Source of the DNA: Pseudonocardia sp. N23
Lineage (GTDB): Bacteria > Actinomycetota > Actinomycetes > Mycobacteriales > Pseudonocardiaceae
NCBI RefSeq assembly: GCF_002583555.1
Contig: NZ_BEGX01000009.1
Span: 1 to 64,000, forward strand
Length of the DNA stretch: 64,000 nt
Direction of reading: 5' to 3'
The notes under the pieces were generated by a model, which was given only the letters and a program-made list of their open reading frames with translations, ran no database searches and was not told the DNA's origin. Both the position numbers and the translations under genes were made by a program. Positions 46,735 through 52,983 of this stretch are shown here, in pieces (positions within the stretch are counted from its first letter, which is position 1; the number at the start of each line of letters is the position of its first letter).

Positions 46735-47278
46735 GCCGGTCCGCAGTTCGCGTCTCCAAGCTCGGCTACGACGCCGCTGCGCCCGACCAAGCTCGGCCAC
46801 GTGGCCGCCTACGCCCCCGAGCTCGCCCCGATGCAGTCCATCTACCAGGACCTTCTCGGGTTCCGCTGGTCCGACACCGTCGGCGACTTCTTCGTCTTCC
46901 TGCGTTGCAACGCCGACCACCACGCCGCGAACTTCATGGCCAGCGCGAAGTTCTCCGGCATGCACCACGTCGCCTACGAGATGCGCGACCCGAACCACCT
47001 CATCGGCATGCTCGACCACCTGGCCAAGCACGGGTACCGGCTGCACTGGGGCCCGGGCCGGCACGGGCCGGGCCACAACCTCGTCACCTACCACCGCGAC
47101 CCCGACGGCAACGTCGTCGAGCTGTTCACCCAGATCGACGTCGTCCACGACGAGGCGAAGGGCTACGGGGAGCCGCGGCCGTGGCACGAGGAGTACCCGA
47201 TGTACCCGAGGACGTGAGGTCGACCTCGCCACCGTCAACCAGTGGGGCCCGATCGACCCGCCCTCGCTCGACCACTGA
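46731..47278 (+). pseudogene. Broken vicinal-oxygen-chelate extradiol dioxygenase
   Basis: ATG 46731 opens with VRVSKLGYDAA, the usual start of a two-domain catechol 2,3-dioxygenase-like protein. After 10 codons the frame changes to RPTKLGHVAAYAPELAPMQSIYQDLLGF (46777 on), the start of the second domain. That domain then reads well, with HHVAYEMRDPNHL and HNLVTYHRDPDGNVVELF holding metal ligands. Near 47215 the frame breaks again: the expected tail VDLATVNQWGPIDPPSLDH follows in another frame. So nearly all of domain 1 is deleted and two frameshifts are present. A start at GTG 46801 would give a lone 138-residue domain. Confidence 0.72.
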
Positions 47279-47290
47279 CCCCTGTGAGTG

Positions 47291-47308
47291 GGAGCGCGAC
47301 GCTCCTTT
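47291..47308 (+). terminator. Hairpin with short T-run after the broken dioxygenase
   Basis: GGAGCG, CGA loop, CGCTCC (47291-47305), then TTT. It is preceded by CCTGTGAGTGG, which matches the flank of the 40-bp palindromic repeats, so it may be a relative of that family. Confidence 0.45.
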
Positions 47309-47409
47309 GACACGTCCGGCGCGCCGTGCGCTCCCCGGCGGGCGCTTCCGGCGCGGTCCTCGCACGGGTGCACCGGCCGTTCCTCGGTGGTCCGGACACC
47401 CCGTCGGAC

Positions 47410-47437
47410 CCGTCCGAATGACCGGTCATTCGGACGG
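47410..47437. promoter_or_regulatory. Perfect 28-bp palindrome upstream of the sulfur operon
   Basis: Arm CCGTCCGAATGACC followed by its exact reverse complement. It ends 42 bp before a TTGACA at 47480, the best promoter in the region. The core AATGACCGGTCATT has the shape of a TetR-family operator. No regulator gene is adjacent, so the protein is unknown. The hairpin potential is also high. Confidence 0.6.
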
Positions 47438-47479
47438 TCCCGAACGGCTGCGGCGCAGGCCACATCGTCGCTGATCGTC

Positions 47480-47509
47480 TTGACACGGCCGCCTCCCGGC
47501 GCGTTCAGT
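47480..47509 (+). promoter_or_regulatory. Predicted promoter of the riboswitch/SolA operon
   Basis: Consensus TTGACA at 47480-47485, an 18-bp spacer and TTCAGT at 47504-47509. The -10 is weak, but the predicted start, about 47516, coincides with the first base of the riboswitch P1 helix. Confidence 0.45.
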
Positions 47510-47513
47510 TGAA

Positions 47514-47606
47514 CCGTCCATCCAGAGCGGCCGAGAGACCGGGCTCGTCGACGCCGCAGCAACCACGCGTTCCACGCGGGGTGCTACCGCCCGGATCGAT
47601 GGGAGA
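47514..47606 (+). ncRNA. SAM-I-superfamily riboswitch (S-box-like)
   Basis: Conserved S-box landmarks occur in order: ATCCAGAGCGG (47521-), GAGAGAC, CGACGCCGCAGCAACC (47550-) and GGGTGCTA (47579-). P1 is TCCATC (47517-47522) with GATGGG (47598-47603). P2 is GCGGC with GCCGC. P3 is a CGCG/CGCG hairpin (ACGCGTTCCACGCG). CCGGG in the P2 loop can pair with CCCGG (47590-47594), the expected pseudoknot. A P4 helix seems absent, so it may be a SAM-IV or SAM-I/IV-like form. It senses S-adenosylmethionine and represses when bound. The P1 3' strand overlaps the GGGAG used by the leader peptide. Confidence 0.8.
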
Positions 47607-47611
47607 CCGTG

Positions 47612-47728
47612 GTGCACCGAGCGTGCCTGCCCGCTGCCGGGCCCGAACGCGGCCATTGGAACGGCGGCCACTGGACCAAGCGTCGTCATCTCGACCTGGG
47701 CCGGCTGCACGCCACCCTCTGTCGCTGA
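47612..47728 (+). CDS. Short leader peptide of the sulfur operon
   Basis: 38 residues from GTG 47612, ending WTKRRHLDLGRLHATLCR. The pattern RRH-(L/V)-DL-x-R-(L/V)-x-(A/S)-x-LCR is that of actinobacterial leader peptides found before sulfur-assimilation genes, where ribosome stalling on the Cys codon controls the downstream operon. GGGAG (47601-47605), the ribosome binding site, lies inside the riboswitch P1 helix. A hairpin follows at 47787-47810. A role as attenuator is inferred from the family. Confidence 0.7.
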   Translation: MHRACLPAAGPERGHWNGGHWTKRRHLDLGRLHATLCR

Positions 47729-47786
47729 CCGACCCCGCCCGGCCCTCCCGCACACGCCCGAACCGGTCCCGCCCCGCACCGCTCCC

Positions 47787-47810
47787 CCCGCCGGGCACGG
47801 TCCCGGTGGG
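47787..47810 (+). terminator. Attenuator-type hairpin before solA
   Basis: CCCGCCGGG, loop CACGGT, CCCGGTGGG: nine pairs including one G-U. It lies 58 bases after the leader stop and 70 before the SolA start. There is no U-tract. It could be the structure released or formed by ribosome stalling in the leader peptide. Confidence 0.45.
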
Positions 47811-47880
47811 CGCACCTGCGCACGGACCCGCGCGACCGCATGTCCGGAAAGCACCCGTCGGCCCACGTCCCGGAGGCACC

Positions 47881-49062
47881 ATGTCCCGCACCGGTCCCAT
47901 CCCCGTTCCACGCCGGCCCGTCGGCGGACCGCGATCCGGGTGGCCGTCGTCGGAGGTCGACGTGGTCGTCGTCGGCGGCGGGGTCGTCGGGGCCGCCGCG
48001 GCGTGGCAGCTCGCCGCCCGCGGCCGCGAGGTCCTGCTGCTCGACCGCTTCGGCCCCGGGCACACCCATGGCGCCTCGCACGGCACGAGCCGTATCTACC
48101 GCCAGACCTACACCGCGGAGCCCTACGTCCGGCTCGCCGTCGAGGCCTACGACCTGTGGCGATGTCTCGAGGACGTCACCGGTGCATCGTTGCTGCAGAT
48201 CACCGGCGGCGTCGACCACGGCGACCGGACGTCGACGACCGCGCTCGCCGCGGCGCTCACCGCGCACGGCATCGCCCACTCCTGGCTCGACCCGCGGGAG
48301 GCGGAGACCCGATGGCCGGGGATGCGGTTCACCGGCCCGGTGCTGCTGCAGCCCGACCGGTCGGGCCGGCTGCACGCCGACCAGGCCGTCGCCGCCCTGA
48401 CCGCGGCCGCCGCCGGGCACGGCGCGGTCCTGCGCCACCACAACCGGGTCGAGCGGCTGGTCGTCCGCGGCGACGACCGCGTCGACGTCGAGTCCGCCGG
48501 CGGCCGCATCCGGGCGCGGCGCGTCGTCGTCGCCGCGGGGGCCTGGTCGGCGGGTCTGCTCGCCGGGCTGGTCGAGCTGCCGCCATTGCGGGTCACCCAG
48601 GAGCAGCCCGCGCACTTCCCGCTGCTCGGCTCCGACCCGTGCCGGCCCGCCGACCCCGGCTGGCCGACGTTCGTCCACCACACTCCACCCGGGGACGGAT
48701 GGCCGTCCGGCGTGTACGGCCTCCCGGCACCGGGGCGGGGCGTGAAGGTCGGGTTCCACGGGGTGGGAGCCGAGTGCGATCCCGACCGCCGAACGTACGC
48801 CGCCGACCCAGTGCAGCTCGCCCGGCTCCAGGACTACGTCGCCAGGCACCTGCCGGGTCTCGACGCCGCCCGGCCCGACCCCGTGAGCTGCACCTACACC
48901 ACGACCCCGGACTCCGGGTTCTTCCTGCACACCCGCGGCCCGCTCGTCGTGGCCGCCGGCTTGTCGGGCCACGGCTTCAAGTTCGCCCCCGCGCTGGGCC
49001 GGGTGCTCACCGACCTCGCCGTCGGTGCCACCACCGGATCACCGCTCGCCGTCGCGGGCTGA
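47881..49062 (+). CDS. solA: SolA/MTOX-like FAD-dependent amine oxidase
   Basis: 393 residues from ATG 47881 (GGAGG five bases upstream). The FAD fold VDVVVVGGGVVGAAAAWQLAARG (about 22-44) is followed by GPGHTHGASHGTSRIYRQTYTAEPYVRLA, typical of monomeric sarcosine and N-methyltryptophan oxidases (covalent-flavin family). The C-terminus has CTYTTTPDSGFFLHTRGPLVVAAGLSGHGFKFAPALG; the usual covalent Cys position is CTYTTT. It oxidises an N-methyl or secondary amino acid to an imine and H2O2. In this operon the amine substrate is probably sulfur-containing. Confidence 0.85.
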   Translation: MSRTGPIPVPRRPVGGPRSGWPSSEVDVVVVGGGVVGAAAAWQLAARGREVLLLDRFGPGHTHGASHGTSRIYRQTYTAEPYVRLAVEAYDLWRCLEDVTGASLLQITGGVDHGDRTSTTALAAALTAHGIAHSWLDPREAETRWPGMRFTGPVLLQPDRSGRLHADQAVAALTAAAAGHGAVLRHHNRVERLVVRGDDRVDVESAGGRIRARRVVVAAGAWSAGLLAGLVELPPLRVTQEQPAHFPLLGSDPCRPADPGWPTFVHHTPPGDGWPSGVYGLPAPGRGVKVGFHGVGAECDPDRRTYAADPVQLARLQDYVARHLPGLDAARPDPVSCTYTTTPDSGFFLHTRGPLVVAAGLSGHGFKFAPALGRVLTDLAVGATTGSPLAVAG

Positions 49063-49090
49063 CCCCCACCACCACCCGAAGGACCGCCCG

Positions 49091-50182
49091 ATGCCCTCCC
49101 GACCCCTGCACCTCGCCGTCGACCTCGACGGCGACGGCGCCCACCCCGCATCCTGGCGCCGTGCCCGGCACGCACCCGACGCGCTGCTCACCGCGGCGCG
49201 CGTCGGACGTGTCGTCCGCGTCGCCGAGAACGCCGGGTTCACGCTGGCGACGTTCGAGGACTCCCCCGCCCCACCCGGCCGCGGGCCCGACCCGGCCGGA
49301 CGCATCGGCGCTGTGGAACGCGCCGCGTTCGCCGCGCCTCTGACCAGCGTCATCGCCCTCGCACCGGTGGTCTCGACGACGTACTCCGAGCCGTTCCACG
49401 TGGCCTCGCAGTTGGCGTCGCTCGACTTCGCGGCGGCGGGCCGGGCGGGCTGGGTGGTGTCGGCGACCGACGATGCCGCCGTCGCCGTCGCACTCGGCCG
49501 CCCGTTCGTCGCCGGCGGGGAGGACCTGCGCCGGGAGGCCCGCGACGCGGTCGCCGTCAACCGGGCGCTGTGGGACTCGTGGGAGGACGACGCCGTGGTC
49601 CGCGACGTCGCCACGGGCCGCTACCTCGACGTCGACAAGCTCCACCACCTCGACTTCGTCGGCGAGACGTACTCGGTGAAGGGCCCGGCGATCGTGCCGC
49701 GCCCGCCACAGGGCCAGCTCGTCGTGGTCGCACCGGAGGGGCTCGTTCCACCCGACCTGGTCGACGTCACGCTGGTCGCCGACCCGACCGTCGACGGTGT
49801 CGCCACCGCCGCGCGCCGGGTCGCGACGCCACGCGTGTTCGCCGAGGTCGAGGTCGTCCTCGACACCGCCGACGGCGACGCGGTCGACCGGCTCGCGGGC
49901 CTCGACGCCGCGACACCGTGGCCGCGGACCGAGCGGCTGCGCCACGTCGGCTCCGCCACCGCGCTCGTCGGCCTGCTCACCGACCTGGCACGCGTCGTCG
50001 ACGGGGTCCGGCTGCTCCCCCTCGTCCTCGACGAGGAGCTGCCGGTCCTGTCGGCCCACGTGCTGCCGGCCCTGTTCCACGCCGGCGTCGCGACCAGGCC
50101 CGTCGCCGGGTCGGCGCTGCGCACGACACTCGGGCTGCCCCGCCCGGCCAACCGTTTCGCCACCCAGGAGGTTCCGGCGTGA
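49091..50182 (+). CDS. Luciferase-like flavin monooxygenase (LLM)
   Basis: 363 residues from ATG 49091. A bacterial-luciferase TIM barrel with LLTAARVGRVVRVAENAGFTLATFED, PLTSVIALAPVVSTTYSEPFHVASQLASLDFAAAGRAGWVVSA and VGETYSVKGPAIVPRPPQG. These correspond to the FMN-binding blocks of NtaA/SnaA-type monooxygenases, though the barrel is shorter. It uses FMNH2 made by a separate reductase to oxygenate or cleave a C-S or C-N bond. It is coupled by GTGA to the next gene, a longer LLM. Confidence 0.82.
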   Translation: MPSRPLHLAVDLDGDGAHPASWRRARHAPDALLTAARVGRVVRVAENAGFTLATFEDSPAPPGRGPDPAGRIGAVERAAFAAPLTSVIALAPVVSTTYSEPFHVASQLASLDFAAAGRAGWVVSATDDAAVAVALGRPFVAGGEDLRREARDAVAVNRALWDSWEDDAVVRDVATGRYLDVDKLHHLDFVGETYSVKGPAIVPRPPQGQLVVVAPEGLVPPDLVDVTLVADPTVDGVATAARRVATPRVFAEVEVVLDTADGDAVDRLAGLDAATPWPRTERLRHVGSATALVGLLTDLARVVDGVRLLPLVLDEELPVLSAHVLPALFHAGVATRPVAGSALRTTLGLPRPANRFATQEVPA

Positions 50183-51561
50183 GTGCCCCCGCAGACGTCC
50201 CGTTCCCCGATGCGCAGGTCCATCTCGGGGTGTTCTTCCAGGGGGTGAACCACTGGACGATCTGGTCGGAACCCGAGAGCGGATCGCAGATCGACTTCGC
50301 GTCGTTCCGCCGGATGGTCACCACCGCCGAACGTGGGCTGTTCGACGCGTTCTTCCTCGGTGAGGGGCTCCGGCTGCGCGAGTCGCGCGGACGCATCCAC
50401 GACCTGGACATCGCCGGACGGCCGGACGCGATCACCCAGCTCGCCGCGCTCGCGGCGCTCACGAGCCGGATCGGGCTCGTCGCCACCCAGAACACGACCT
50501 ACAACGAGCCCGCCGACCTGGCGCGGCGGCTCTCGGGCCTCGACCTGCTCTCGGGCGGGCGTGCGGGCTGGAACGTCGTGACCACCGACAACGCGTGGAC
50601 CGGGGAGAACTTCCGCCGCGGCGGCTACCTCGACCACGCCGACCGCTACGTCCGCGCCGAGCAGTTCCTGCACGTCGCGCGCGGGCTGTGGGACGGCTGG
50701 GACGACGGCGCCGCCGCATCCTCGGCCGACGCTCCCTCGTGGTCGCGCCCGGACTCGATCACCCCGGTCCTGGCGCGGACCTCGCAGTTCGCCGTCGACG
50801 CCGTCCCGCTGCTGCCCCGCAGCCCGCAGGGCCATCCGGTGATCTTCCAGGCCGGGGACTCCTCCGAGGGCCGCGACTTCGCCGCCCGCAACGCCGACGT
50901 GATCTTCTCGGCGCACGGTTCGGACTTCGACGATGCGCTCGCGTTCGCCACCGACGTCCGGGCGCGGCTGCGTGCGGCGGGCCGTCCGGACGGCGACGTC
51001 CGCATCCTGCCCGGCACCACGATCGTCATCGGCGACACGGGCTCCGACGCCGAGGAGAAGGCCCGCTGGCTCGCGCACCGGCAGGTCACCCCGGCGACGG
51101 CACTCGCGATCGCAAGCCAGGTGTGGGGGTTCGACCTGTCCGGCCGCGACCCCGACGGCCCGTTGCCGGCGGAGGACCCGGTCGTCGCCGAGTCGACCGG
51201 CGAGATGGGGTCGCGACGGTGGACCGACAAGCACGCGATCGTGGCCCGCTGGCGCGACGTCGCGGCCGCACAGAAGCTGTCGCTGCGCGAGACGGTGATC
51301 GAGCTGGAGCCGCGCCGCGGGCACGTCGGTACCGCAGCAGGGCTGGCCGAGAAGTTCGCCCGCTGGGTGCGCCACGGCGCCGTCGACGGGTTCAACGTCT
51401 CCCCGTACTTCACTCCCGACGGGCTCGACGACATCGTCGACGAGCTGGTCCCACAGCTACAGGAACGCGGTGTGTACCGCCACGCCTACGAGGGGGCGAC
51501 GCTGCGCGAGCACCTCGGGTTGCGGGCGCCGCTGACCCGACGGGACCGACGGCCGGCCTGA
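50179..51561 (+). CDS. NtaA/SnaA/DszA/YxeK-type FMNH2-dependent monooxygenase
   Basis: 460 residues, GTG 50179 with AGGAGG nearby. LGVFFQGVNHWTIWSEPESGSQIDFASF, RIGLVATQNTTYNEPADLARRLSGLDLLSGGRAGWNVVTT and GHPVIFQAGDSSEGRDFAARNADVIFSAH are signatures of the NtaA/DszA branch. That branch cleaves C-S bonds in dibenzothiophene sulfone and S-modified cysteines, or C-N bonds in nitrilotriacetate. It shares the operon with SolA under the SAM riboswitch. No flavin reductase gene is in the window. Confidence 0.87.
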   Translation: MSAPADVPFPDAQVHLGVFFQGVNHWTIWSEPESGSQIDFASFRRMVTTAERGLFDAFFLGEGLRLRESRGRIHDLDIAGRPDAITQLAALAALTSRIGLVATQNTTYNEPADLARRLSGLDLLSGGRAGWNVVTTDNAWTGENFRRGGYLDHADRYVRAEQFLHVARGLWDGWDDGAAASSADAPSWSRPDSITPVLARTSQFAVDAVPLLPRSPQGHPVIFQAGDSSEGRDFAARNADVIFSAHGSDFDDALAFATDVRARLRAAGRPDGDVRILPGTTIVIGDTGSDAEEKARWLAHRQVTPATALAIASQVWGFDLSGRDPDGPLPAEDPVVAESTGEMGSRRWTDKHAIVARWRDVAAAQKLSLRETVIELEPRRGHVGTAAGLAEKFARWVRHGAVDGFNVSPYFTPDGLDDIVDELVPQLQERGVYRHAYEGATLREHLGLRAPLTRRDRRPA

Positions 51562-51658: not shown

Positions 51659-51750
51659 TCACACATACGAGTGACGTGACCGCGACAATGTGGGACCTTC
51701 TCGACTCGATGCCCCGGACACCGGGGCCGGACCAGGACGACGGTGACCCG

Positions 51751-51879
51751 ATGACTACTCCGAACTGCGCGAACGTGCAGTGGCGGCGTGTCGGTCGTGT
51801 CGTCCGGCGCAGCCGCAGGCACGTCGACCTCCACCGGGTCGACAGCGCGCTCTGTCGCCTCCCGCAACAGTCCCGCTGA
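51751..51879 (+). CDS. Cysteine-type attenuation leader peptide
   Basis: 42 residues from ATG 51751: MTTPNCANVQWRR, then RRSRRHVDLHRVDSALCRLPQQSR. The core RRHVDLHRVDSALCR is the recurrent motif of actinobacterial sulfur leader peptides. It closely parallels the one before solA. An alternative longer start is GTG 51676. Cys codons at two places would make it sensitive to charged tRNA-Cys supply. Confidence 0.72.
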   Translation: MTTPNCANVQWRRVGRVVRRSRRHVDLHRVDSALCRLPQQSR

Positions 51880-51928: not shown

Positions 51929-51949
51929 CCCGGGAATTGCATTCCCGGG
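51929..51949 (+). terminator. Attenuator hairpin after the leader peptide
   Basis: CCCGGGAAT, loop TGC, ATTCCCGGG: a perfect nine-pair stem 50 bases after the leader stop and 36 before the permease ATG. A second hairpin, CGGCCGG with CCGGCCG, lies just upstream (51881-51902). Together they make a plausible terminator/antiterminator region. Apart from the promoter, leader and these hairpins the 423-bp gap shows nothing. Confidence 0.6.
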
Positions 51950-51984
51950 TCTCCGCGCGCCCATTTCCCTGGAGTCCACCGCCC

Positions 51985-52983
51985 ATGGGCGACACCGACG
52001 AAACCTCCCGCCCGGGGGTCACCCTCGTGCGCGCCGACGAGCCCGTCACTCCTCCCGGCGGGCCACGGCCCGACGCGGCAGAACGCGTCGTCCCGCTGCG
52101 CCGTCCCGGCCGGTGGATCGCGACCGTCGTGGTCCTGGTCGTGTTCGCCCAGATCGTGCACGGGCTGATCACCAACCCGTTCTTCCAGTGGGACCGGTTC
52201 GGCTACTGGTTCGTGCGCCCGGTCGTCCTCGAGGGCCTGCTCATCACGCTGAAGGTCACGGCCCTCGCCGGGGTGTTCGGCCTGCTCGGCGGGGTCGTCC
52301 TCGCGCTGTGCCGGCTCTCGCGCAGCCCCGTCCTGCAGTCGATGAGCTGGATCTACATCTGGCTGTTCCGGTCGGTCCCGCTGATCGTGCTGCTGCTGTT
52401 CCTCTACAACTTCAGTGCGCTCTACCCGACGCTGGGCCTCGGGATCCCGTTCGGCCCGACGTTCGTCGAGTTCAACGAGTCGGCCCTGGCCACCGAGATC
52501 GTCATCGCGGTCGTCGGGCTCGGTCTCAACGAGTCCGCCTACGCCGCCGAGGTCGTCCGCGGCGGGATCCTGTCGGTCGACCACGGCCAGCACGAGGCGG
52601 CCGCGGCGCTGGGCCTGCCGCGCCGTTACCAGTTCCGGCGCATCGTCGCGCCACAGGCTCTGAGATCGATCGTGCCCAACTACGTCAACCAGCTGATCAA
52701 CCTGATCAAGGCGACCTCGCTCGTGTTCTACGTGTCGCTGCTCGACCTGTTCGGGCAGGTGCAGAGCCTCGGCAGCACCTACCCCGGCGACATCGTCCCG
52801 CTGCTGATCGTCGCGACCGTCTGGTACGTGATCCTCACCAGCCTCGTCTCGGTCGTGCAGTACTACGTCGAGCGCTACTTCGCGCGCGGCGCGGTCCGGA
52901 CGATGCCGCTCACCCCCCTCCAGAAGCTGCGGGCCGGCATCGCCGAGCTGCGCGGCCGGATCGCCGCAGGAGCCGTGCGATGA
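51985..52983 (+). CDS. Polar amino acid ABC transporter permease
   Basis: 332 residues from ATG 51985. A His/Glu/Gln-type permease (TcyB/YxeN-like) with a helix at about 40-60 and LEGLLITLKVTALAGVFGLLGGVVLALCRLS. The EAA loop is EAAAALGLPRRYQFRRIVAPQALRSIVPNYVNQLINLIKATSL. It has an unusually long basic N-terminal extension. A single permease suggests a homodimer. Overlaps the ATPase by ATGA. Confidence 0.9.
   Translation: MGDTDETSRPGVTLVRADEPVTPPGGPRPDAAERVVPLRRPGRWIATVVVLVVFAQIVHGLITNPFFQWDRFGYWFVRPVVLEGLLITLKVTALAGVFGLLGGVVLALCRLSRSPVLQSMSWIYIWLFRSVPLIVLLLFLYNFSALYPTLGLGIPFGPTFVEFNESALATEIVIAVVGLGLNESAYAAEVVRGGILSVDHGQHEAAAALGLPRRYQFRRIVAPQALRSIVPNYVNQLINLIKATSLVFYVSLLDLFGQVQSLGSTYPGDIVPLLIVATVWYVILTSLVSVVQYYVERYFARGAVRTMPLTPLQKLRAGIAELRGRIAAGAVR

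Follow-up and report, generated by a model that had tools for sequence, protein, structure and literature searches.

Which gene does a SAM riboswitch control when the first open frame behind it encodes a short, cysteine-containing leader peptide? The question is raised by one locus in a 64,000-nucleotide stretch of the genome of Pseudonocardia sp. N23 (hereafter 'the window'), where a sequence-only reading had seen an S-box-like aptamer at 47514-47606 with a P1 helix overlapping the only ribosome binding site (RBS) of a leader peptide. Coordinates of all features discussed are collected in Table 1.

A short SAM-I aptamer with a ribosome binding site in P1

Scanned against Rfam, the 64 kb window has a single match that exceeds its gathering score. 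It was obtained with RF00162 (SAM-I) on the forward strand, at 58.1 bits (E 1.5e-12, gathering score 44.4), and spans the full length of the model from 47515 to 47605. The proposed aptamer thus stands, and the comparison with Rfam SAM models that had been suggested as its check came out in its favour. The SAM-I/IV model RF01725 did not match the locus, which rules out this classification; genome-wide it found only a long-type locus on contig C114, at 19.1 bits, below 41.1, with E allowed up to 10. As in other SAM-I aptamers, helices P1, P2 and P3 and the pseudoknot between L2 and J3/4 are present, while P4 is strongly reduced, with 2 nt in place of 18 model positions in the RF00162 alignment.

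P1 is formed by pairing of 47515-47522 (CGTCCATC) with 47598-47605 (GATGGGAG). The Shine-Dalgarno (SD) sequence GGGAG makes up positions 4 to 8 of the 3' strand and is the only SD of the leader; the overlap first read from the letters was confirmed. The distance from this SD to the start codon is 3 nt (GTG 47609) or 6 nt (GTG 47612). A P1 3' strand that carries an SD at initiation distance from a start codon is what characterizes SAM-I switches acting directly on an RBS; here, however, the sequestered SD serves a leader peptide and not an enzyme or transporter gene. Free energy folding of 47515-47640 alone did not recover the SAM-I fold (MFE z +1.21), which is not unexpected for an aptamer stabilized by its ligand and a pseudoknot, yet provides no independent support.

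Alignment A1 was made of the 63 loci of the genus at which a leader is present (see below). In it, the P1 core CCATC/GATGG is almost invariant, and the 3' strand is of the GATGRRRG type, with the SD inside. When pairs were counted over 60 distinct genus sequences, 93.3% of the cells of the SAM-I structure were paired, compared to 92.7% in shuffles and 31 to 54% in versions slid along the alignment. The middle pair of the pseudoknot was CG in 34 sequences, UG in 16, UA in 6, GC in 3 and other in 1, and one pseudoknot pair changes on both sides in 9 sequences. No covariation was detected in P1 within the genus set, where the core is near-invariant and the outer positions pair poorly (78% of the helix is paired), and the whole-structure covariation score (0.053) was matched by partners slid by -3 (0.056). 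The argument is therefore carried by the Rfam match and the SD overlap, and not by covariation. Given that the RNAalifold consensus of A1 lacked the known P1 and P3 of SAM-I, helices were placed by hand in the covariance model R2, built from the 63 aptamers and used for the searches (R1 was left unused).

A -35/-10-like pair ends 5 nt before the aptamer, and the transcript would therefore begin with the riboswitch; a transcript start downstream of 47606 appears unlikely from this arrangement. Of the 71 short-type loci of the genus, 60 have the pattern TTGMYN-N16-19-TWNNNT ahead of the riboswitch (59 of these within 28 nt), compared to 1% of shuffled upstream regions. A stricter scan, which demanded A at position 2 of the -10 element, detected no promoter at the window locus. 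In the 71 loci, two main spacings separate the -10 element from the aptamer, one of about 4-9 nt and one of about 20-28 nt.

The leader peptide

The leader has 38 or 39 codons, depending on the start, and its C-terminal end is RRHLDLGRLHATLCR, as had been claimed; for the start, placed earlier at 47612, both GTG 47609 and GTG 47612 are candidates. Over the last 16 codons and the stop, comparison with the ortholog revealed five synonymous changes and no amino-acid change. The peptide contains two separated cysteines, has an SD and carries one fixed UGU codon; the run of Cys codons that typifies poly-Cys leaderless short ORFs is missing. A short ORF with Cys near its C-terminus ahead of sulfur genes corresponds to the type described by NCBIfam NF042933 and NF042934. 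The window leader scores 17.5 against a cut-off of 45 for NF042933 and remains under the cut-offs of the NCBIfam leader models; in the same genome, a relative linked to a riboswitch (G000:C4:83988-84035) reaches 27.5 against the NF042934 cut-off of 27.

Table 1. Features of the SAM-I/leader locus and of the genes behind it (positions in the window)
Feature	Position	Strand	Basis
Putative promoter: -35 TTGACA 47480-47485, 18-nt spacer, -10-like TTCAGT 47504-47509	47480..47509	+	Sequence
SAM-I (S-box) riboswitch aptamer, short type, P4 much reduced	47515..47605	+	RF00162 match; pair counts in 60 distinct genus sequences
P1 helix, 5' strand CGTCCATC	47515..47522	+	cmscan alignment; alignment A1
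Pseudoknot, L2 side (CCGGG)	47539..47543	+	Pairs with 47590-47594
Pseudoknot, J3/4 side (CCCGG)	47590..47594	+	Pair counts in 60 distinct genus sequences
P1 helix, 3' strand GATGGGAG, carrying leader SD GGGAG 47601-47605	47598..47605	+	cmscan alignment
Cysteine leader peptide, start GTG 47609 or GTG 47612, stop TGA 47726-47728, ...KRRHLDLGRLHATLCR	47609..47728	+	Sequence; ortholog comparison
Terminal Cys codon UGU, proposed stall codon	47720..47722	+	UGU in 91/93 leaders with Cys there
C-rich, G-poor, weakly structured spacer; candidate Rho-utilisation region	47729..47880	+	Base composition; fold z +1.96
SD of solA (GGAGG)	47872..47876	+	Sequence; conserved in ortholog
solA-like FAD amine oxidase, first gene after leader	47881..49062	+	PF01266; NF008425 246.7 bits, just under cut-off 257
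Luciferase-like FMN monooxygenase (start approximate)	49085..50182	+	PF00296; TIGR03860 149.7, below cut-off 279.7
NtaA/DmoA family FMN monooxygenase, overlapping preceding stop	50179..51561	+	TIGR03860 376.4, above cut-off 279.7

Recurrence of the module in the genome and the genus

Five SAM-I riboswitches were found in the genome of strain N23. One is of a long type and lies directly on a gene read as threonine synthase from its translation. The other four are of the short type. In each of them the SD lies in P1 and a leader comes next: RRHLDLGRLHATLCR in the window, and RLHVDLLRVTSAACPA, RRHVDLCRTQGALCR and RRHVDYGRTGAALCR elsewhere. Leaders also stand alone: among 11 ORFs with the motif that were examined in detail, 2 had a riboswitch upstream and 9, one of them in the window, did not.

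The search with RF00162 was extended to 60 genomes of the genus, 59 of which had a match. The 71 lowest-scoring matches (60.9 bits or less, some of them below the gathering score; 67 from other genomes and 4 from N23) were designated 'short type'. Under 'long type' we placed 30 of the best-scoring matches, of which the 29 that a script was able to orient entered the count; only the one in N23 was read as threonine synthase. A leader was present at 63 of the 71 short-type loci, with its start codon 2 to 11 nt after P1. In 57 of the 63 this distance was 4-7 nt, the spacing to be expected for an SD in use. The controls, searched with a motif slightly looser than the definition behind the 63, contained a leader at none of the 29 long-type loci and at 28 of 35,747 random anchors. 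In all 63 aligned loci the SD is inside the P1 3' strand, and the leader peptide is conserved. The nesting of aptamer and leader, earlier noticed at one locus, is thus upheld, and that locus is one copy of a recurrent module.

Eight short-type loci lacked a leader (L040, L041, L045, L046, L054, L058, L066 and L099). As judged from translations, the riboswitch lies directly on a monooxygenase-like ORF at L041 and on a solA-like ORF at L046 and L054. At L066 (G056:C25), the riboswitch is kept and the first eight codons of the leader (VRPSTADA) are fused in frame to the downstream ORF; compared to the relatives L103 and L072, the motif, the Cys codon, the remaining leader and the spacer are gone. 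The arrangements at L041, L046, L054 and L066 are consistent with a leader inserted between switch and gene, and support the start codon assigned to the leader.

A fixed motif and a fixed UGU codon

For the analysis of leader content we used a set of 96 leaders, consisting of the 63 from the genus and 33 others (28 Pseudonocardiaceae, 5 from other families); five further Pseudonocardiaceae leaders (L125, L130-L132 and L153) are outside this set. Their conserved motif is R-x-[HV]-[VI]-D. Numbering from [HV], R at -2 and D at +2 were found in 96 of 96 leaders, R at +5 in 92, and Cys at +11, that is, exactly 11 residues past [HV], in 93. This Cys mostly precedes the stop by one to a few codons. 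The fixed R is encoded by CGC (43), CGG (28), CGT (16), CGA (7) and AGG (2), and the fixed D by GAC (58) and GAT (38); such a mixture of synonymous codons argues for selection on the peptide. At an E value of 0.01 or better, 56 of the 96 leaders matched NF042934, 33 matched NF042936 and 33 matched NF042933.

The codon of the +11 Cys was UGU in 91 of 93 leaders. The internal Cys at +4 was UGC in 42 of 45, the other leader cysteines were UGC (31) or UGU (12), and the background, counted in the genes of the window and in downstream genes, was 75 UGC and 10 UGU. Two deviant codons at the UGU site, GGT and AGT, are each one base from TGT and are uninformative. As for a pairing constraint on the RNA as the reason for UGU, an inspection by eye found no partner. 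The constant spacing between motif and Cys points to a nascent peptide of the arrest type; simple descent without indels could also yield it. Stand-alone leaders of the N23 genome had UGU in 8 of 8 cases with Cys at the +11 position. In genomes with a preference for UGC, the terminal Cys codon is UGU almost without exception, whether or not a riboswitch precedes the leader.

Spread beyond the genus

Within the Pseudonocardiaceae, R2 matched in 287 of 297 genomes and 44 of 44 genera. Here and at order level, these counts include weak matches, long-type riboswitches among them. A leader was found at 33 of 33 loci from 29 other genera of the family (matches exist in 43 other genera, of which these are 29; the loci are mostly the best-scoring match listed per genus and not a random sample), with a sequence that is mostly RRVVDQxRRTxxxCR-like. 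In 21 of the 28 of these family loci that were followed further, the start of the next ORF resembles that of one ABC ATPase (VITVENLxKSF or similar); in the other 7 the script did not settle the start.

At order level, matches at 1e-5 were obtained in 188 of 298 genomes, many of them weak. Leaders were read at 12 strong loci from families f3, f7 and f14, above the weak matches of about 42-55 bits. They were present at 10 of the 12, the misses being L156 and L157 (degenerate or cut). Family f14 is probably the Geodermatophilaceae, judging from a named Blastococcus contig (L268) that shares its leader with L163. At class level, R2 matched at 1e-12 in 14 of 296 genomes. The leader counts do not cover the repeat genus copies L105-L118, L122, L124 and L126, the family loci L165-L170 and L172-L175, or the class-level loci L324 and L326-L339.

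At least 126 places, one of which is a class-level locus, came from a pattern scan across named genomes. Among the matches listed, 31 had the leader, 57 had the riboswitch directly on a long ORF, 14 had another small ORF and 24 were unsettled. The 31 leader places listed consisted of 26 in Pseudonocardiaceae, 2 in Kineosporiaceae, 1 in Geodermatophilaceae and 2 less resolved; the 57 direct places listed comprised 21 in Micrococcaceae, 12 in Cellulomonadaceae, 2 in Pseudonocardiaceae and the rest in others. Outside the Pseudonocardiaceae, most of the places among the matches listed had no such leader. As far as this pattern goes, the nested arrangement prevails in Pseudonocardiaceae (26 of 29 places among the matches listed), and the direct one is common elsewhere. 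At eight loci (L206, L226, L244, L252, L277, L289, L313 and L317, from Actinomyces, Cellulomonas-type and other genomes), unrelated small Cys ORFs directly follow the same aptamer. These are possibly independent leader types, or chance.

The spacer between leader and solA

A hairpin had been proposed between the leader and solA. This did not survive: the predicted fold of 47729-47880 is weaker than those of its shuffles (z +1.96), of which 199 of 200 were at least as stable, a terminator scan of 47200-48000 found no intrinsic terminator, nor the U-run of a classical transcription attenuator, and a 41-nt part of the stretch is absent from the ortholog. A hairpin or terminator at this place was therefore rejected.

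Past the leader stop, the sequence gains C and loses G. In the first 60 nt after the leader stop, C minus G was 0.45 in the window, with a mean of 0.19 for the genus and 0.03 for downstream-DNA windows; the value exceeded 0.2 in 27 of the 63 genus loci (36 did not reach this level), compared to 4% of downstream-DNA windows. In the first 30 nt, the genus had C 0.53 and G 0.25, and the family set C 0.47, G 0.18 and T 0.24. The distance from the leader stop to the next gene is 152 nt here, and 65-175 nt in family loci with a start resolved within 200 nt. Alignment A2 (20 loci) was too gappy from the leader to the metN start for conserved structure to be called. A gene for Rho is present in the genome.

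A possible two-input leader and its alternatives

Sequence and comparison establish the aptamer, the SD in P1, the leader, its conservation at the peptide level and the fixed UGU cysteine, together with a search in which no terminator hairpin was found. The reading that we favour, with a probability of roughly two in three, is a nested 5' leader with two inputs, in which the SAM-I switch would gate the cysteine leader and the genes would be on only when both SAM and cysteine are low. Transcription would begin at or just before the aptamer. Abundant SAM would stabilize P1, the 3' strand of which holds the leader SD, and the leader would stay untranslated; at low SAM, P1 would open and ribosomes would translate the leader. 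If cysteine, and hence Cys-tRNA, is short, the ribosome would stall at the UGU near the stop and shield the adjoining C-rich spacer, so that transcription would run on into the sulfur-scavenging genes. With plentiful cysteine, the ribosome would be released, leaving the spacer free to load Rho, and transcription would end. With SAM bound, no ribosome would protect the leader, and the outcome would likewise be OFF. In this scheme we infer SAM binding at the window aptamer, the stalling, Rho as the effector and the direction in which the leader acts; since SAM is kept as an OFF signal, leader translation would have to help expression at low cysteine.

Rho-dependent attenuation blocked by a stalled ribosome is known from the tna operon. 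We prefer it with moderate confidence over translation attenuation, because no terminator was found, the spacer is C-rich and weakly structured, a Rho gene is present, and a simulated stall did not expose the downstream SD; the Rho step itself is argued from base composition. A stronger version of the scheme is somewhat short of an even bet. It holds that the system is an old hierarchical gate, in which SAM-I controls ribosome access to a cysteine-responsive arrest peptide whose motif and UGU cause the stall that blocks Rho. It would then be a conserved two-metabolite AND gate built of nothing but RNA and a peptide of some 20-60 residues. It would occur in all Pseudonocardiaceae genera examined and in other actinobacterial families, and would have multiplied before many sulfur-acquisition operons in Pseudonocardia.

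Among the alternatives, those that keep the cysteine leader, or at least its translation, carry more weight than the rest. A ribosome stalled in the leader might free a downstream SD that the end of the leader or the spacer otherwise keeps hidden, without involving Rho. Translation attenuation is reported to have been shown for several cysteine biosynthetic genes in M. smegmatis (PMC13236596, citing Canestrari 2020). For this reading, 59 loci were assembled and the footprint of a stalled ribosome was masked; 53 loci were scored and six were unscorable. The mean probability of the downstream SD being unpaired went from 0.271 to 0.242 in 23 family loci (control mask 0.274) and from 0.323 to 0.354 in 30 genus loci (control mask 0.370). 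Release of the SD found no support, there being no net change across the 53 loci, although equilibrium folding ignores cotranscriptional effects and is weak evidence. All in all, we consider translation attenuation unlikely here. Less credit still goes to a leader that is a mere conduit, through which the riboswitch controls the main gene by reinitiation or coupling, with no sensing of cysteine. There is a precedent in M. tuberculosis ppe2, for which reinitiation behind a uORF under riboswitch control was demonstrated (PMC11260477). At our loci, however, the stop-to-gene distances given above are too long for direct coupling, and a conduit would need neither the fixed UGU cysteine nor the peptide motif, both of which are shared by stand-alone leaders.

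The two remaining explanations dispense with the leader. SAM-I riboswitches of Firmicutes classically work through terminators, and the switch might terminate transcription of the downstream genes in this way, the leader being incidental. This is very improbable in view of a region, 47200-48000, with no terminator-like element, of a leader conserved at the peptide level in 96 loci, and of an SD that is part of P1. Finally, the short ORF could be a coincidental frame beside a real riboswitch, as the window has 69-76% GC and many chance frames. Such a coincidence is barely conceivable against the difference between 63 of 71 short-type loci and the two controls, and against the purely synonymous divergence from the ortholog in the conserved part of the leader.

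Relation to known systems

The components of this locus are known. The comparisons below rest on the parts consulted of the cited papers, and similarities and differences hold for those parts. An RBS in the 3' side of P1 of a SAM-I riboswitch was described earlier (Barrick and Breaker 2007, PMC2258182); there it is the RBS of the downstream gene, whereas here it is that of a cysteine leader peptide. For a Sinorhizobium SAM-II switch, translation starting downstream of its SD was shown (PMC9373788). Cysteine leader peptides are also known from actinobacteria (PMC1262725; PMC13236596). In Streptomyces lividans, a leader with Cys and Met precedes metNIQ, with no SAM riboswitch in the part of the table covered (PMC8079986).

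Other close systems have a riboswitch, or a candidate for one, at a uORF. In M. tuberculosis, the B12 riboswitch of uPPE2-ppe2 (Kipkorir 2024, PMC11260477) is a translational OFF switch whose first target is likewise a relaying uORF. It differs in its ligand, in a uORF that overlaps the main gene, and in acting by termination-reinitiation, with no amino-acid sensing in the parts examined. The odc1 motif (uORF-25-1), a riboswitch candidate from alpha-proteobacteria (PMC8632094), resembles our locus in that its RBS is predicted to lie in the right shoulder of P1, adjacent to the start codon of a conserved uORF. It differs in having no known ligand and in an RBS that serves two overlapping starts, those of an 11-residue uORF and of the main gene; amino-acid sensing was not proposed in the part consulted.

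On the side of the leader, the NCBIfam families NF042934 (cis_reg_atten), NF042933 (Ms5788A) and NF042936 (Ms4527A) are also actinobacterial leaders with Cys near the C-terminus; the window leader differs in falling below their cut-offs, and its stand-alone relatives in the same genome have no riboswitch. Cys codons in a short upstream ORF have been proposed to sense cysteine in the poly-cysteine leaderless attenuators of mycobacteria (Canestrari 2020), and similarly in the cysS attenuator uORFC-8-2 of Rhodobacterales (PMC8632094). Both use runs or tandems of Cys codons, whereas here we have an SD, one fixed UGU, a conserved motif and no terminator found; in uORFC-8-2, moreover, UGC dominates and an intrinsic terminator is present (PMC8632094). 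Two signals in one leader are also received by the tandem attenuators of Salmonella mgtCBR and by the tandem SAM and B12 riboswitches of B. clausii metE (PMC3641672). The sensors in these two cases are described as independent; here, one would decide whether ribosomes reach the other.

In the open-access literature searched, no account was found of a cysteine leader peptide under the control of a SAM riboswitch. The sequence-only reading knew of no described example of such nesting, and this holds to the following extent: the parts are known, and their hierarchy, conserved across genera, was not found described there. If the proposed gate is real, it would be a natural circuit, conserved widely, by which one sensor of a metabolite decides whether a second is switched on, and it would link SAM and cysteine, two end products of sulfur assimilation, in one RNA. 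The natural variants (riboswitch with leader, riboswitch alone, leader alone and the leader-deleted fusion) could serve for testing how the gate evolved, and the fixed UGU and peptide motif make a large, little-characterized family of actinobacterial leaders directly testable. The arrangement is also a warning, since the true first target of a riboswitch can be missed where annotation connects the switch directly with the annotated gene behind it.

Downstream genes and neighbouring leaders

The SolA-like oxidase and the two luciferase-like FMN monooxygenases behind the leader (Table 1) point to organosulfur scavenging. Downstream genes were sulfur-related where tested: a MetN-like ATPase (2 tested), and in the genus FMN monooxygenases and peptide-type importers. 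At the two ATPase loci that were scanned, L128 from the Pseudonocardiaceae and L155 from family f14, MetN (TIGR02314) was the best NCBIfam match, at a score below the cut-off.

Two further leaders were noticed near the locus. The first, RRHVDLHRVDSALCRLPQQSR (51676-51879, or 51751-51879 when starting at ATG), is a second Cys leader without a riboswitch. It lies shortly before a cystine-type ABC permease (51937-52983) and is preceded by the promoter-like elements TTGACA (51630) and TAGCGT (51653). The other lies just past the end of the window (G000:C9:65198-65292, reverse strand; L003/L102), where a SAM-I riboswitch and a leader stand ahead of an oligopeptide/nickel-type substrate-binding protein.
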